Assembly: GCA_035765895.1 (NCBI GenBank)
Contig: DASTWL010000049.1
Location: 1-48,221 of the forward strand
DNA: 48,221 bases
DNA from: Verrucomicrobiia bacterium
GTDB taxonomy: Bacteria > Verrucomicrobiota > Verrucomicrobiia > Limisphaerales > DSYF01
Direction: 5' to 3'
The notes under the pieces are model-generated. The model saw only the letters and a list, made by a program, of their open reading frames with translations, was not told the DNA's origin and ran no database searches. The translations under genes were made by a program, and so were the position numbers. Shown one piece after another: positions 40,704 through 48,221 of this stretch (the stretch's first letter is position 1; each line of letters starts with the position of its first letter).

Positions 40704-40861
40704 GACCACTTGAAAAGTTTGCCGCCGTCATGGTCAAGGTTTACGGACGGAGAGTCTTGGCAGGAATTGACGCATGGATCGTGAAATTCAACCAAAGCCG
40801 CCCGTGGGCCTGTGGACGCGTTGTCACTGCAAGCAACCACGCCCGTCTTTGACCTTTCCAG

Positions 40862-40907: not shown

Positions 40908-40940
40908 GGGCATGTTAAATTTGCACCGGCTTTGGTAAAT
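40908..40940 (+). promoter_or_regulatory. 33-bp shared element, copy A
   Basis: Begins GGGCATGTTAAATTT, then G, CACCGG, C, TTT, G, GT, A, AAT. It matches copy B (43792-43824) at 29 of 33 positions without gaps. It ends 46 nt before ATG 40987 of the PAS-AraC gene. It contains GTTAAAT and GGTAAAT 20 bp apart, which may be paired half-sites for an AraC-type protein or the two boxes of a promoter with a conserved spacer. Confidence 0.65.
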
Positions 40941-40965
40941 GCTCAGGTGGTGAGGGGGGCGTCGG

Positions 40966-40980
40966 CCGTGGTAAGCACGG
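40966..40980 (+). promoter_or_regulatory. Palindrome CCGTG-N5-CACGG before the PAS-AraC start
   Basis: CCGTG (40966-40970) and CACGG (40976-40980) flank GTAAG. The right arm overlaps GGAG at 40979-40982, the only Shine-Dalgarno-like sequence before ATG 40987 (spacing 4 nt). As DNA it could be an operator; as RNA a 5-bp hairpin would partly cover the ribosome site. A similar palindrome follows copy B of the 33-bp element. Confidence 0.45.
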
Positions 40981-40986
40981 AGCCAC

Positions 40987-41757
40987 ATGATCACCGTGAA
41001 GTTGAAAGCGGCAACCATGGCGGCGGTTCTGGGTGACATCAGAGGGTTCGCCCCCGAGGGCCTGGCCTTGGTGGAGCAGTTGTTCGACCATCTGCCCGAT
41101 GCGGTCTTTTTTGCCAAGGATGCCGAGGGACGATACGTGGCGGCGAATCAAACGCTGGTCCGGCGATGTGGCCGGCGTGCGAAACGGGAACTGCTCGGTC
41201 GTGCCGTGGGTGATTTTTTTCCGCCCGACATGGCGGCCCGTTATTCAGCGCAGGACGAAACGGTGCTGCGCTTTGGGCGGCATCTCACCGATCATCTGGA
41301 AATGCACTGGCTGGAACACCGGCGTCCAGGCTGGTGTCTGACCACGAAACTGCCCGTGCGTAGTGGGGCCGGTCAAATCATCGGCCTGATTGGTCTTTCC
41401 CGCGATTTGCGCACACCGGGCGGACGACTGAACATTCCCGCCGGCCTGGTGGCGGCCCTGGAGCATCTGGAAACGCATTACGCGGATGCGGTCTCACCCT
41501 CCTCCCTTGCGCGGCGGGCAGGATTGACGTCGGCCCGGTTTGCGCGGCTGGTCAAACGCATTTTCCAGCTCACCCCGCAGCAGTTGATTGTCCAAACGCG
41601 GCTGGCGGCCGCCGCGCGGCTGCTCACCGAAACGGATCGCTCGCTGGCACAGACTGCGCTGGAATGCGGCTTTTACGACCACAGTGCCTTTACGCGCGCC
41701 TTCCGGGCGGCAACGGATCTTACCCCGTCGAAATTCAGGGAGGCGCGCCGCTACTAG
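40987..41757 (+). CDS. AraC-family regulator with N-terminal PAS domain
   Basis: 256 residues (ATG 40987; ATG 41017 possible). Residues about 25-140 form a PAS domain (VEQLFDHLPDAVFFAKDAEGRYVAANQTL...GQIIGLIGLSRDLR), and residues about 155-256 carry two helix-turn-helix motifs of the AraC type (SPSSLARRAGLTSARFARLVKRIF; SLAQTALECGFYDHSAFTRAFR). PAS-AraC proteins of this short type are common in PVC bacteria and are thought to control sugar genes, with the PAS domain sensing a small ligand. A shared 33-bp element and a palindrome lie directly upstream, so autoregulation or control by the double AraC protein is plausible. It converges on the double AraC gene with a 67-nt gap. Confidence 0.92.
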   Translation: MITVKLKAATMAAVLGDIRGFAPEGLALVEQLFDHLPDAVFFAKDAEGRYVAANQTLVRRCGRRAKRELLGRAVGDFFPPDMAARYSAQDETVLRFGRHLTDHLEMHWLEHRRPGWCLTTKLPVRSGAGQIIGLIGLSRDLRTPGGRLNIPAGLVAALEHLETHYADAVSPSSLARRAGLTSARFARLVKRIFQLTPQQLIVQTRLAAAARLLTETDRSLAQTALECGFYDHSAFTRAFRAATDLTPSKFREARRY

Positions 41758-41824
41758 GGATGGCGCCGATGGGGGTCGGAATGGTGGCCGCCTGGGCGCC
41801 AGTTACCTTGCGCGGGCCCACAGG

Positions 41825-43678
41825 TCAGCTGCGGGTTGGTGCGGCAGGGTGCACCAAGGGAGCCTTTTTGCGGTATTCCGAGGGCCGGCATCCGACGTTG
41901 GACTTGAATTCTTTGGAGAAGGCCACGGGGTTGGGGTAGCCCACGGCCCGGGCGATTTCATTCAACGTGAGGGGGGTGGTGGTCAGCAATTCGGTGGCCC
42001 GCCGCATGCGGAGCGATGTGAGTTGCTGGAGCGGACTGCGGCCCAGTTCCTTCACGCAGGCGCGGCGTAGATTTTCGGCGCTGCATTGCGCTTCGCGGGC
42101 AAGGGATTCCATGTTCCACGGTTCGGCAAGCCGCGCGGAAACGCGCAGCCAGAGTGCCGGCACCGGGCTGGTGGAGGGCGACGGCTGGGCGAAGGCCAGG
42201 ACATACCCTTGAACCAGTTCCAGCCAATGGTCAATCTGGCCGGGCCGGTTGGGGCCGCGGCATTCGGCGGTCAGCCCTTGAATCGCCAGCCGGAGCGGTT
42301 CCGGATCAAATTCCGCCACCACGGGAGAACTGACCGAGCCAGTCGGGCGAACCGCCGGTTGGGCGGGGGAATGTTGGTAGCACACGTAGGCAAAGCGCCA
42401 GGCCTCCCCGGGCAGCGCGCCAAACGCCGTGTGCAAATGCTCGGGCAGCAAAAAGGCCAGCCCCGGCCGCACGGTCCGCCAACGTCCATCCACCAGAACC
42501 TGGCCGCGGCCGCCAAAACACGCCAGAAAGTAGCTGGTTGTCTGATTGGTGCGCACGATTTGGTAGGGGGCGTGGGCTTCGGCGATGCCGGTGTGAACCA
42601 TGCCGTGACGAGCCAGGGCGCTGGAAACGCCGTAATGTTTCAACCACGGTCTCGGCTCTTCGGTGCCCACGCGCACGCCTTCAAAGGTTGTGCCCTTGCC
42701 ATGAACCGTCACATCCTGTTTCAACCGGGCGTTGGTCAATCCCAGCGCCGATGTCGAGGCGCCGTTGACATCAATGGGCAGGCCGGCGCGTTCCGCACTT
42801 TGGGCCTGTTGCCGGAATGCCCGCGGAGAAATGTGGCGGAAGCGGCGGAATTGAGCATTGAAGTGCGAGAGATTGTTGAAGCCGGCGTCGTAGGCGATTT
42901 CAGTGATGGGCTGGTCGGTGTCAATCAACGCCCGGCTGGCGTTGCGAATTTTGATTTCGTTCACGTATTGAACGTAACTGGTGCCGAGGTTGCGCCGGAA
43001 AAACTGGCTGAAGGCCGCGGGCGAGAGGCGGACGGCTTTGGCGACTTCGCTCTGGGTCAGGTCCGGGCCCAGGTGGGCTTGAATGTAATTCAGGATCTTT
43101 CCGAGTTTGCCGTTCGCCTCGGCCGTGACGGGCACGATGAAGTCGCTCGCGGCCAGGGGCGCGAGTTCCTGACTTTGGGCGATGCCGTGGAGCATTTCCA
43201 GCAACGTGTTGAAGCGCATGAATGAGCCCGGTGGCTCCTGTTGCATGATGACAAAAAGCTTTTCCACCTCCCGGCGCACGGTGCCGGTGACTTGCAGGCC
43301 GCGCCGGGCATCAGTCAGCAGTTTGGCAATGCCTCGCATCTCCGGCATCTTCCAGAACGGTTCGCCCCACGCATCCGGGCGGAAATGCACGACCAATGAG
43401 AGCACGCCCGGCTCCAGATCCTTGTCGGAAACCCAGCAGTGAGGTGTGTCGGTTCCGATCAGGCAAAGGTCCCCATCGACAAACTTCTCGACCGAATCCC
43501 CGACGAATCGCAGCCCGCGTCCCCGGACAATCAAGGTCAACTCCACCTCCGGATGGTAGTGCCAGTTGAAGGGGAAATTCGGCCAGTCGAATTGTCTGAA
43601 CGTCAACGACGAGCCGACGTCCGCCGGCACGTTTTCAAAGTGAATGCTTTTCGATTTGGCGGGCAACATGGCAACCAT
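41825..43678 (-). CDS. Tandem AraC regulator: two complete cupin + HTH units in one protein
   Basis: 617 residues in one uninterrupted frame, about twice the usual AraC length. Unit 1: cupin-like sensor about 15-130 (FNWHYHPEVELTLIVRGRGLRFVGD...GTDTPHCW) and AraC HTH about 192-290 (LTQSEVAKAVRLSPAAFSQFF; PITEIAYDAGFNNLSHFNAQFR). Linker about 291-325. Unit 2: second cupin-like sensor about 330-440 (QTTSYFLACFGGRGQVLVDG...LPEHLHTAFG) and AraC HTH about 510-602 (NMESLAREAQCSAENLRRA; TLNEIARAVGYPNPVAFSKEF). The units are divergent, so this looks like fusion of two different regulators rather than recent duplication. Start ATG 43678 (ATG 43669 possible). It could read two ligands or bind two half-sites within one chain. 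Upstream are inverted repeats and copy B of the 33-bp element. Confidence 0.92.
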   Translation of the reverse strand: MVAMLPAKSKSIHFENVPADVGSSLTFRQFDWPNFPFNWHYHPEVELTLIVRGRGLRFVGDSVEKFVDGDLCLIGTDTPHCWVSDKDLEPGVLSLVVHFRPDAWGEPFWKMPEMRGIAKLLTDARRGLQVTGTVRREVEKLFVIMQQEPPGSFMRFNTLLEMLHGIAQSQELAPLAASDFIVPVTAEANGKLGKILNYIQAHLGPDLTQSEVAKAVRLSPAAFSQFFRRNLGTSYVQYVNEIKIRNASRALIDTDQPITEIAYDAGFNNLSHFNAQFRRFRHISPRAFRQQAQSAERAGLPIDVNGASTSALGLTNARLKQDVTVHGKGTTFEGVRVGTEEPRPWLKHYGVSSALARHGMVHTGIAEAHAPYQIVRTNQTTSYFLACFGGRGQVLVDGRWRTVRPGLAFLLPEHLHTAFGALPGEAWRFAYVCYQHSPAQPAVRPTGSVSSPVVAEFDPEPLRLAIQGLTAECRGPNRPGQIDHWLELVQGYVLAFAQPSPSTSPVPALWLRVSARLAEPWNMESLAREAQCSAENLRRACVKELGRSPLQQLTSLRMRRATELLTTTPLTLNEIARAVGYPNPVAFSKEFKSNVGCRPSEYRKKAPLVHPAAPTRS

Positions 43679-43713
43679 CAGATTGTCGACTGACTCAAGT
43701 CATTCATTTTTAA

Positions 43714-43751
43714 TCCGTGTTTGTGACGGCCCGGGCGGCCACAAACACGGA
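43714..43751. promoter_or_regulatory. Perfect 12-bp inverted repeat upstream of the double AraC gene
   Basis: TCCGTGTTTGTG (43714-43725) and its exact reverse complement CACAAACACGGA (43740-43751), separated by 14 nt that contain GGCC...GGCC. It is centred about 55 nt upstream of ATG 43678 of the minus-strand gene. It could be an operator or, in the transcript, a strong 5'-leader hairpin. Confidence 0.6.
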
Positions 43752-43752
43752 G

Positions 43753-43767
43753 CCGTGAGCAGCACGG
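43753..43767. promoter_or_regulatory. Palindrome CCGTG-N5-CACGG in the divergent region
   Basis: CCGTG (43753-43757) and CACGG (43763-43767) around AGCAG, directly beside the 12-bp inverted repeat whose arms also carry CCGTG/CACGG. The same 10 fixed bases with the same spacing occur at 40966-40980. Confidence 0.45.
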
Positions 43768-43791
43768 TGGATTCTCGGGGCGATAAATTTT

Positions 43792-43824
43792 GGGCATGTT
43801 AAATTTCCACCGGTTTTAGTCAAT
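43792..43824 (+). promoter_or_regulatory. 33-bp shared element, copy B
   Basis: Begins GGGCATGTTAAATTT, then C, CACCGG, T, TTT, A, GT, C, AAT: 29/33 identical to copy A at 40908-40940. It ends 36 nt before ATG 43861 of the pseudopilin gene, in the same orientation relative to its gene as copy A. GTTAAAT and AGTCAAT lie 20 bp apart. Confidence 0.65.
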
Positions 43825-43839
43825 CGTGCGGTAGCACGA
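43824..43839 (+). promoter_or_regulatory. Palindrome TCGTGC-GGTA-GCACGA after copy B
   Basis: A perfect 6-bp inverted repeat with a 4-nt centre, overlapping the last base of the 33-bp element and ending 21 nt before ATG 43861. It parallels the CGTG...GTA...CACG palindrome that follows copy A. If the 33-bp element is a promoter, this would be an early 5'-leader hairpin. Confidence 0.45.
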
Positions 43840-43860
43840 ATTTGATGCTATGCTAGACAT

Positions 43861-44742
43861 ATGAGCACGCAAATTATTACCGCCATGCAGACCCCTTATC
43901 GCTGCTCGTTTGGCGACGCCTTTTACCGGAAGGGCGGGCGAAGTTCCGTTGGCCGCGAAGCCGACCCCGTCTCGGGGAGTTTCCGTGGCGCCGGCTTCAC
44001 CTTGATTGAACTGCTGGTGGTGATTGCCATCATCGCGATTCTGGCGGCCATGCTGCTTCCCGCTCTCAGCCGGGCCAAGGCGAAGGCCAAAGAAACTTCA
44101 TGCATGAACAATCTCCGGCAAATCGGCGTTGCCACGGTGATGTATACCGCGGATTACAATCGTTATCCGGGCTGTCTTTTTATTTCGGGCAACGCGCATT
44201 ATGTATGGCCTGAACGTCTGTTCACCCTGATGAGTGAGAACCGGCAGGCGTTTTGGTGTCCTTCGGCCAATCCCAACAGCAGTTGGGATACAAACCTGAA
44301 CAAGACGCTCGGCTACCCAAGTGATCGATTTGCCGTCCGCCCCAATTCGCGCTTTTCCTATGGTTACAATGACTGGGGCGCTTACCCGTATTTTGGCGGC
44401 AACTACGGTCTGGGTGGCGATGTGGACAGTCCGGCCAATGAGGTAAAGGACACCCAGGTGCTGCACCCGTCGGAAATGATCATGCTGGCGGACAGCCGGG
44501 TGAACGGCGACTTCGATGGGAATATTGATCCGACAACGCCGGATGAGTGGCCATCCAGCCGCCACAATCGGCGGACGGTGATTATGTTTTGTGACGGGCA
44601 TGCCGAAAAGGTTCTCCGGCGGGAGGTCGTCAACCCGGCCAACGAGTATTGGAGCCGGCGGTGGAACAATGATGGACACTATCGCGGCGCGAACGCATGG
44701 TCTTACGATGCCAACGCTGCCAATTCGCTGGATGAAAATTAA
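43861..44742 (+). CDS. Pseudopilin with H-x9-DG motif
   Basis: 293 residues from ATG 43861; ATG 43885 would shorten the leader by 8 residues. A long leader (about 45 residues) ends in RGAG, followed by [19 protein letters not shown] with Glu at +5, the standard prepilin peptidase site with Gly at -1. The globular part includes CMNNLRQIG and ends with [14 protein letters not shown], i.e. H-x9-DG. It is a membrane-inserted, type II secretion/pilus-like pseudopilin of the DUF1559 type. It is transcribed away from the double AraC gene across a region with three inverted repeats and the 33-bp element, and is followed after 128 nt by a giant surface protein, which it may help to export or assemble (inference). 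Confidence 0.92.
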
Positions 44743-44870: not shown

Positions 44871-47800
44871 ATGAAAACCACAACCCAAACATGGCGGCGT
44901 CATGAGCCGTCTTGTTCGTATGATGCCAACAACTCCCCCCAGGCGCCACGCCGCTCGTCCGGCGCACGGAACGTCAGAGCTTGGTCCGCGATCACACTCC
45001 TATGTCTCGGGACCAGCTTGAGTTCCACGCTGGCCGCCAACCTCCTTACCAACCCCGGCTTTGAAAGCGGACAGACCGGCTGGGCCAATCCCAATCCGAT
45101 TTACGGTGGCGCGTCGGTTGTGATCAATGATCCAGCCCTTGCTCACAGCGGAAACAGTTGCATTTCCAATTACAATGCCGGCGGCATTTCGGGGCCGGAA
45201 CAGGGCGACAGTGCCGGTGGCTGGAGTTCGGGAGTGTCGCTGCCCATCTCTTCCGCCAACTTTTATCGCCTGAGTGCCTACGTCAAAGTGCCGGGGGCCT
45301 CAACCAACCCTCAGCCCATCACCCTGCGCTACCGCTTTGAACCGTCAACCACGCGCAATGACGTGGGCACCAAGACCATCAATACGGAAAACTGGACGCT
45401 GGTGCAAAGCGGCTGGCTCTCGCCCGCCGCGGGCGATTATTTCGAGAGCTACTGGATGGTGCACTCGATCAACAACGGCGTCATGTTCTATGCCGATGAT
45501 TGCGCGCTGGAGGAGGCGACGCCATTAACGCTGCAGGGGCGGGTGGTTACCAATGGCGTTGGGGTGGATGGCGCGAATGTAAGGGCCGTTTCCGCTGACT
45601 ATTCAACCACGACCACGACGACGTCGGGCGGAGGATATTACACGCTGGCGGTGCCACCGGGCACGTATTTCATCGGAGCCAATGTTCCCGGTCTGCTGGG
45701 CAGCACCAACGCGACCGTCAGTTCGGATCCGACCACGGCGGGCGACATCGTCCTTAGCACGGATCCCGATTATGATCCGGACCTGATTTTGTTTGCGCGC
45801 AGTTCGGCATTCAATGCCGGAGCTCCATGGGCCACGGCCTTTCCGGCTGGCGGGGCGCTTTCGCTCATCAACAATCCCGGCGTGAAGAGCTTCGGGGGAG
45901 TCAAGTGGGAGAACAACGATGCGGTGAACAACACCGGCTTCCTCCTGGGCACCTACGACACCTCCATTCCGGCCAATGGCGCATCGGTAGTGCTGGTCGC
46001 CAAGCGCAAGCCCAGCATTGCCAGCGACAACTGGGATTCCATTGTGGATGTGTTTTATGATCGTCTGGTGCTGGGCATCCGCAACGACACCGGCGTCGTG
46101 AATGTGCGCCGCAACGGCAGCCTGGACTACAGCACCACCTCAATTCCGGTGGGGCAGACCACAGTGTTGAGTTTGGTGGTGCAGCCGGACGGCACTTACA
46201 AAGTCTGGGCCAATGGCGTTTCCATCATGACCAACACCAACACCAGCGACATGAGTGCCTTGGTGCCGATGGTGCCCGGTCCGTTTGCCAACGCCATCAA
46301 CGTGGGGCGCAACAATCCGGACACGTGGACGACCTTCAACGGCTACGTTGGCGATGTTTACATCTACCACACCGCGCTGGATGCCACCAAGCGCCAGGCG
46401 TTGGAAGCAAGCTTGATGAACAAGTTCGTCACCAATGCCACGCTGAGTTATACGATCGTATCCTCGGCTGACGCGAATGGTTCGATCAACCCGGCCGGCA
46501 CCAATATCGTGGTCCAGGGCAATGACCAGACCTATACCATCACAGCCAATGCAGGTTACGTCGTTTCGGATGTTTTGGTGGACGGGACTTCGGTGGGCGC
46601 GAAAACCAGCTATACCTTCACCGATGTTTCCACCAATCACACCATTGCTGCGAGCTTCATCTCCCTGCCGCCGCAAACCATCACGGCCACCGCCGGCGCG
46701 AATGGGACCATCAGTCCGACGGGCGCGGTTAGTGTGGCACCCGGAAACAATCAAAGCTTCGCGATGATTCCCGACGTCGGCTATGCGGTTGCGGACGTGC
46801 TTGTGGACGGGGTTTCGCAGGGTGAAATCTACAATTACACCTTCAACTTTGTGACGGCTCCCCACACCATTTCGGTGACCTTCCGCGCGCTCAGCATGCC
46901 TGTTCCGCGGACGGAACAGCTGGTCTTCGGTGCGGTGTCGAGTGTCCTGCCGGGTGATGCCATCACGATCACCAACTGGCCGGCCTATGTGCCCGCCAAC
47001 AAGACCTTGGTGACCATTGGTTCGCCCACCAGCACGCTGATCAATGGTCCGGTGGCGACCAACATTTGGGAAAACAACAACAGCGGGACGTCCGACGGCT
47101 ATCGTTATCCCGGTGGCGCGGGCGGCGGCGGCGAATACCTGTCACCGATCCCCTGCGCGGGCGCCACGATTGTCGCGGTGGCGGCGCCCAACACCACTTA
47201 TTCCGACACGGGTCCGTGGACCTCGATTGTGGACGTGTTCTACGATCAATTGGTGCTGGGCATTCGGAATCTGGACGGCACGGTCGTGGCACGTGTGAAG
47301 GGCGGGGGCGCCGTTTATAGCACAGACGTCATTCCCGTCGGCCAGCCCACCGTGTTGACCATGGTGGTGCAGCCGGACGGCAGCTACAAAGTGTGGGCGA
47401 ACACCGCGCTGATGTTGTCGGGCACGAGCGGCACATTCACCAACCTGACGCCCGGGGCCAACACGTTCCAGCATTACATCAATGTGGGACGCAACAATCC
47501 GGACGGCTGGACTGCGTTCAATGGCAACATCGGTGACGTGTTCCTCTACAAGACGGCCCTGACCGATGGCGAACGTCAGCAGCTTGAGGCCACCTTGATG
47601 GCCAAGTTTGGCGCGCCGCTGCCTCCGAAGTATGCGTGGAAGGGGAGCAATAACGGCAACTGGAGCAATCCGGCCAACTGGAATGACTCGGTTCCCGGCG
47701 TTGGCAACTTGGCCACCTTCTCGGACACCAACACCGCGGGTGCCACGGTGCAACTCGACACTGCCATCACCGTCAAGGGAATCGAATTCAACAATCTGGT

Positions 47801-48221
47801 GCCTAATACCACCATCGCCTCCACGCTCGGGAACACCCTGACCTTGGATGATGGCAAATCCACGTATAACACGCGTGCCCCGATCCTGGTCGATGGCGGC
47901 GCGCACACGATCAGCGCGGCTGTTGATGCGTGGGCGGGCATTGAACTGACCGGCCCTGGCAAGCTCACGATCTCGGGCACAACCAGCATCGGGACCTACT
48001 CTGTCGTCAATCCGGCGCTCGTCGTTAGCGGTGGGGGTGAACTTGAACTGGATGGGGCGAGCACCCTGACTTTCACCCGCGGCGCATTGGTCCAAGGCGG
48101 CGGCAAATTGACCATCACCGGGGCCTTTACCAGCCAGGACGCGGACCAGATCATTGGCGACAACGACACAACGGGCGAGGTCGTGTTGAGCGGGTCCGGC
48201 TCTTGGACTCATTCGGGCAGT
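44871..48221 (+). CDS. Giant secreted surface protein with CBM-like, LamG, InlB B-type and autotransporter-type repeats (3' end outside window)
   Basis: Open from ATG 44871 to the window end (1117 codons seen, no stop). A basic leader of about 40 residues precedes a signal helix (ITLLCLGTSLSSTLAAN). Domains by residue: CBM4/9-like about 55-215 (LLTNPGFESGQTGW); carboxypeptidase-regulatory-like 218-295; LamG-like about 339-519; two InlB B-type repeats about 523-668 (ANGSINPAG...; ANGTISPTG...); second LamG-like about 681-911; from about 920 beta-strand repeats of the autotransporter-associated kind (WKGSNNGNWSNPANWNDSVPG...GPGKLTISG). The two LamG-like domains are internal duplicates, sharing SIVDVFYD, LVLGIRN, VVQPDG and INVGRNNPD. 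Likely exported and cell-surface bound; no catalytic motif is seen. The 128 nt upstream hold no other gene and no obvious promoter. Confidence 0.85.
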   Translation, partial: MKTTTQTWRRHEPSCSYDANNSPQAPRRSSGARNVRAWSAITLLCLGTSLSSTLAANLLTNPGFESGQTGWANPNPIYGGASVVINDPALAHSGNSCISNYNAGGISGPEQGDSAGGWSSGVSLPISSANFYRLSAYVKVPGASTNPQPITLRYRFEPSTTRNDVGTKTINTENWTLVQSGWLSPAAGDYFESYWMVHSINNGVMFYADDCALEEATPLTLQGRVVTNGVGVDGANVRAVSADYSTTTTTTSGGGYYTLAVPPGTYFIGANVPGLLGSTNATVSSDPTTAGDIVLSTDPDYDPDLILFARSSAFNAGAPWATAFPAGGALSLINNPGVKSFGGVKWENNDAVNNTGFLLGTYDTSIPANGASVVLVAKRKPSIASDNWDSIVDVFYDRLVLGIRNDTGVVNVRRNGSLDYSTTSIPVGQTTVLSLVVQPDGTYKVWANGVSIMTNTNTSDMSALVPMVPGPFANAINVGRNNPDTWTTFNGYVGDVYIYHTALDATKRQALEASLMNKFVTNATLSYTIVSSADANGSINPAGTNIVVQGNDQTYTITANAGYVVSDVLVDGTSVGAKTSYTFTDVSTNHTIAASFISLPPQTITATAGANGTISPTGAVSVAPGNNQSFAMIPDVGYAVADVLVDGVSQGEIYNYTFNFVTAPHTISVTFRALSMPVPRTEQLVFGAVSSVLPGDAITITNWPAYVPANKTLVTIGSPTSTLINGPVATNIWENNNSGTSDGYRYPGGAGGGGEYLSPIPCAGATIVAVAAPNTTYSDTGPWTSIVDVFYDQLVLGIRNLDGTVVARVKGGGAVYSTDVIPVGQPTVLTMVVQPDGSYKVWANTALMLSGTSGTFTNLTPGANTFQHYINVGRNNPDGWTAFNGNIGDVFLYKTALTDGERQQLEATLMAKFGAPLPPKYAWKGSNNGNWSNPANWNDSVPGVGNLATFSDTNTAGATVQLDTAITVKGIEFNNLVPNTTIASTLGNTLTLDDGKSTYNTRAPILVDGGAHTISAAVDAWAGIELTGPGKLTISGTTSIGTYSVVNPALVVSGGGELELDGASTLTFTRGALVQGGGKLTITGAFTSQDADQIIGDNDTTGEVVLSGSGSWTHSGS

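Follow-up and report, generated by a model that had tools for sequence, protein, structure and literature searches.

A repeated element upstream of regulator and pseudopilin genes in a Verrucomicrobiia bacterium is probably an operator for a fused double-AraC protein

Introduction

In the arabinose system of Escherichia coli, the half-sites araI1 and araI2 recur with a period of 21 bp. They overlap the -35 region of the weak araBAD promoter, from which the araC gene is divergent. The I2 half-site, at -51 to -35, lies over the -35 box and is covered by AraC (PMC11434276). The Verrucomicrobiota considered here have dozens of genes for pilin-like proteins. In the open literature that we searched, we found no paper on such operators in Verrucomicrobiota, none on a regulatory site for the pilin-like proteins of these bacteria, and none on fused double AraC proteins.

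Here, we analyze a stretch of 48,221 nucleotides (the window) from a Verrucomicrobiia bacterium (assembly GCA_035765895.1, contig DASTWL010000049.1; genome of 4.64 Mb, 96% complete), in which one element is repeated upstream of two different genes. As at araBAD, an AraC-family gene is divergent from a target gene. Sequence comparisons make it very probable that the element is an AraC-type operator-promoter read by a double-AraC protein, predicted to tie three promoters into a regulon through binding and activation.

Results

The original prediction placed a 33-bp element at 40908-40940 and 43792-43824. Both copies are at these positions, ungapped, on the same strand, and identical at 29 of 33 nucleotides. 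Their distances to the first ATG codons (40987 and 43861) are 46 and 36 nt, as predicted, and a 21-nt core of the element was found in none of the shuffled windows. At ∼37-43 bp, the element exceeds the 33 bp first described. Across seven aligned sites, conservation begins at GTTAA (position 40914 of the window in copy 1) and continues to GTnG (near 40950). Operator copy 1 spans 40908..40950 (forward strand; the original 33 bp and 10 more columns), 5' of the gene for a PAS-AraC regulator. Operator copy 2 spans 43792..43834 (forward strand), in a divergent intergenic region 5' of a pseudopilin gene.

The element contains tandem direct half-sites ∼21 bp apart, the organization expected of an AraC-type operator. 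In the seven sites, direct-repeat autocorrelation has its sole peak at lag 21 (0.42 vs. ≤0.31 elsewhere), pairing GTTAA...G with GTCAA...G; the corresponding frequency in column permutations, 6 of 1000, is nominal and applies to one of 19 lags. The half-sites of the seven-site alignment are GTTAA (40914-40918) and GTAAA (40935-40939) in copy 1, and GTTAA (43798-43802) and GTCAA (43819-43823) in copy 2, all on the forward strand. The 20-bp offset reported earlier is correct for the starts of GTTAAAT and G/A-GT-A/C-AAT, but the true repeat period over the seven homologous sites is 21.

Downstream of the repeat, every one of the seven sites has a GnTA box at a constant distance (varying within a 3-nt window), and five of these boxes take the form TGnTA. 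Shared downstream patterns of this kind appeared in 0 of 3000 shuffled sets of the seven sites and in 3 of 2000 for the first four sites alone. The TGnTA box resembles an extended -10 and is 28-31 nt past the second half-site. With this GnTA spacing, the candidate extended -10 box of the PAS-AraC promoter is TGGTAAGCA (40969..40977, forward strand). The pseudopilin promoter has candidates within 43846..43859 (forward strand), either TGCTATGCT (43846-43854) or TGCTAGACA (43851-43859). Reading the GnTA box as an extended -10 places the conserved columns at about -69 to -33.

These features bear on a second reading in the original prediction, in which an alternative (e.g., ECF-type) sigma factor uses GTTAAAT as a -35 box and GT(C/A)AA as a -10 box, separated by a conserved spacer. 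The orientation of the copies and their distance to start codons fit such a promoter, and GTCAA resembles some ECF -10 boxes. However, promoters of this class have two short boxes, transcription starting immediately downstream, and no further -10, whereas here a separate -10-like box follows at fixed spacing. The conserved tandem repeat, with its 21-bp period, extends over ∼37 bp and is too long for such a promoter. The element also has only three sites in the genome and follows one AraC lineage (see below). The results do not support an unusual sigma factor, and we consider this reading very improbable.

The CGTG...CACG palindromes noted after each copy (40966-40980 and 43824-43839) are both present but carry no weight, being at unequal distances from the element and absent at the third copy described below. 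Inverted repeats of 5 bp with a short loop arise in 14-18% of shuffles of the palindrome stretches, and we rejected the palindromes as a shared part of the element because they are within chance. Elsewhere in the intergenic region, a perfect inverted repeat (CCGTGTTTGTG-14-CACAAACACGG; 43715-43750) lies between the start of the double-AraC gene and the operator. It is followed by a T-run on neither strand and is thus not a typical terminator. Among the loci compared, it is present only in copies of the window locus. It looks like an extra segment because the operator, 113 nt from the double-AraC start in the window, is no more than roughly 10 nt away from the AraC start in three other genomes (G088, G246, and G362).

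A whole-genome search allowing ≤3 mismatches found only the two window copies (control matches: 0), and an exact-consensus search of genome_contigs gave no match. A sequence-only model built from the two copies gave one extra match (GGGCGCGTTAAATCTGCATCGGTATTTGTCAGG, E 0.09) on contig C85, ∼56 nt ahead of a GTG codon at which a further pseudopilin gene probably starts. With a looser pattern, exactly three sites in the genome match at 0 mismatches, the two window copies and that on C85; two matches at 3 mismatches, both inside open frames, do not stand out from the four obtained with the reversed pattern as a control. Weaker matches in whole-genome scans were no more frequent than in controls. 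All three sites are in sense orientation, 36-56 nt 5' of a start codon. The matrix scan suggested with the original prediction hence uncovered a third copy, again before a pseudopilin gene, which supports the proposal that the regulator and pseudopilin belong to one regulon. In the window genome, the element is carried by three promoters only, those of PAS-AraC, the window pseudopilin, and the C85 pseudopilin.

The PAS-AraC gene targeted by copy 1 (40987..41757, forward strand) encodes Pfam PAS_4 and HTH_18 domains; judging from its orthologs, which begin at GTG 40996, this codon is perhaps the real start. The pseudopilin gene (43861..44742, forward strand) encodes N_methyl and the start of DUF1559, and an ortholog has the same divergent arrangement at locus L203. 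Use of an in-frame ATG at 43885 would give it a 5' leader. A large protein, encoded at 44871..48221 (forward strand) by a gene that runs off the window and is probably in the pseudopilin operon, has weak Laminin_G_3 and CarboxypepD_reg matches and is probably secreted. On C85, the pseudopilin is flanked on one side by an acetylesterase of sialic-acid type (SASA) and on the other by a protein of 1508 aa. Each has modules in common with the large protein of the window (43-48% identity). By eye, the next gene there looks like a sodium-solute symporter, and no AraC gene was recognized by eye in the ORF lists of this 23-kb contig. The genome encodes ∼70 N_methyl (pilin-like) proteins, and their upstream regions contain the element at the two named pseudopilins only. 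A general pilin promoter was rejected on these numbers.

The gene between the two window copies (41825..43678, reverse strand) encodes a double-AraC regulator of 617 aa in which two AraC units are fused. Pfam HTH_18 matches it twice (1.5e-44, above the cut-off), and its PDB matches include AraC and MarA. A cupin-type sensing domain, AraC_binding, is over the cut-off for the whole protein (1.6e-8) and just under it when the N-terminal half is scanned alone. The predicted structure (mean pLDDT 70) has a beta-rich, cupin-like region followed by a bi-HTH, in that order twice, with the second cupin poorly resolved. In the order sample, there is one full-length ortholog (70% identical, 629 aa), in genome G088, listed as an uncultured Verrucomicrobia MAG. 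Because this genome also has the fused protein, the fusion is not an assembly artefact. A single-AraC protein encoded on contig C95 shares 50% identity with the C-terminal half.

Across genomes, the element accompanies the AraC lineage to which the N-terminal half (42779-43678, reverse strand) belongs. A matrix whose sole training set was the three window-genome sites, applied to other Verrucomicrobiota genomes, finds the element in four (G088, G246, G362, and G045), always beside an AraC gene with 49-70% identity to the N-terminal half. In G088, which is from another family, the double-AraC gene and a pseudopilin gene (product 70% identical) are arranged divergently, and the element is in the same place and orientation (score of 24.0 in the divergent intergenic region). 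In the other three, the element adjoins single-AraC genes (49, 51, and 54% identical to the N-terminal half) and shares its strand with the divergent gene, with scores of 25.0 (G246, locus L208), 20.3 (G362, L209), and 16.6 (G045, L207). Among 1.86 million background positions, none scored ≥20.3 and four scored ≥16.6. The divergent gene encodes a Laminin_G_3 protein in G246 and a protein 43% identical to it in G045; for G362, Pfam gave no identity from a 107-residue piece. Besides the window genome, only one clearly independent locus is thus placed to drive a pseudopilin, two a LamG-type protein, and one this last protein.

The operator is linked with the regulator gene across genomes, as all five loci with at least 49% identity to the N-terminal half have the element, facing the divergent gene. 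Homologs with ≤41% identity have it in 0 of 28 cases, several of which have upstream stretches that are roughly anchored or incomplete. When a four-site model was run against 320 genomes from the order, G088 and the window genome alone had strong matches; its stricter filters missed the weaker G246 and G045 sites, and the scan therefore sets no bound on the spread of the element. Order-wide matches at E 0.03-0.2 were taken as chance, and those inspected had no consistent place before genes.

This pattern weighs on the possibility that the element is instead the operator of PAS-AraC, which would regulate its own gene and also control the pseudopilins. PAS-AraC is an AraC-type protein with copy 1 in front of its gene, and the three nearest relatives have neither a close PAS-AraC homolog nor the element. 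However, 117 of 313 genomes from the order encode a PAS-AraC homolog, and the orthologs examined lack such an element upstream; many have a different conserved motif, TCTGGCATCGC-N10-GTCTTGGCGCA. The element adjoins the lineage of the double-AraC N-terminal half in five of five loci, which also argues against PAS-AraC as its reader. We regard PAS-AraC as an unlikely reader.

The PAS-AraC motif is an observation in its own right. It is strongly conserved just 5' of PAS-AraC genes in several families, usually once per genome (e.g., L081, L083, L088, and L102; G309:C100:10611-10642 and G310:C259:4194-4225). The window PAS-AraC gene lacks it and has the operator there instead. A degenerate ortholog-type motif near 40826-40856 (by eye, 11 of 22) was dropped as chance.

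The copies could also be a small mobile or recently duplicated repeat that has no regulatory function, consistent with the 29 of 33 identity of the window copies. In addition, a further copy in G088 is a plain duplication of its locus: on contig C240 (L202:2690-3039), a piece of the double-AraC/pilin region is duplicated and the operator is kept with two changes, both in variable columns. We rejected this match as an independent site for that reason. Against a mobile repeat, the flanks of the two window copies are dissimilar and the element is kept at corresponding positions across families. The element-bearing pilins of the window contig and C85 are only distantly related as paralogs, and no element precedes a paralog that is 50% identical to the window pilin; the shared element is therefore not a by-product of gene duplication. 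Of the readings weighed, a nonfunctional repeat is the one we find hardest to credit.

Discussion

The AraC-operator reading of the original prediction gains support from the association with one AraC lineage in five genomes, the 21-bp tandem repeat, and the -10-like box at fixed distance. The most likely reader, judged from these comparisons, is the double-AraC protein whose gene separates the two copies, acting through its N-terminal AraC unit. This unit would bind the tandem half-sites GTTAA.../GTCAA..., 21 bp apart, in response to a signal, probably a sugar or a fragment of glycan. The same element serves single-AraC relatives, so recognition does not require the fusion. The operator ends at the position expected for a weak promoter's -35 box, and bound double-AraC may contact and recruit RNA polymerase there; we infer activation rather than repression. 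Predicted targets are the divergent pseudopilin operon, the PAS-AraC gene, which would create a regulator cascade, and the second pseudopilin/carbohydrate-enzyme operon on C85. In G088, G246, and G362, the bound protein would probably also restrain its own AraC gene, as in araC-araBAD, because the operator starts so near the AraC start codon. Several observations weigh against this overall reading: no AraC gene was recognized on the contig of the C85 copy, the window operator is 113 nt from the double-AraC start, the C-terminal AraC unit has no site assigned to it, and a single clearly independent locus pairs the element with a pseudopilin.

More speculatively, the double-AraC protein could be a covalent pseudo-dimer, one chain with two different DNA-reading heads and two sensors that integrate two signals at the tandem half-sites. 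We think this rather unlikely; if true, such a protein would control a cascade (through PAS-AraC) and two pilin/secreted-enzyme operons.

A regulator, an operator, a promoter geometry, and a three-promoter regulon can now be defined from sequence in an uncultured lineage. Under this model, some of the pilin-like proteins would be induced along with secreted proteins that bind or act on glycans. The site itself is an ordinary, well-known kind of arrangement. The fused reader is its unusual part, and the fusion and the regulator-to-regulator link are the parts of specialist interest.

Relative to araI1-araI2, the element likewise has two tandem half-sites, which would overlap or abut the -35 region of a weak promoter if the candidate -10 box is used. 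Unlike in araBAD, the half-site sequence is different, the regulator of the window genome fuses two AraC units, pseudopilin/LamG operons and another regulator gene are the predicted targets, and no CRP or looping site was identified. The double-AraC protein is also similar to AraC/XylS-family regulators of carbohydrate use, with a cupin-type N domain and a two-helix-turn-helix C domain (HTH_18), and, as at loci of that family, the regulator is beside operons for secreted, probably carbohydrate-acting proteins. It differs from those regulators in its linkage to pilin-like proteins, a combination on which we found no paper in the open literature.
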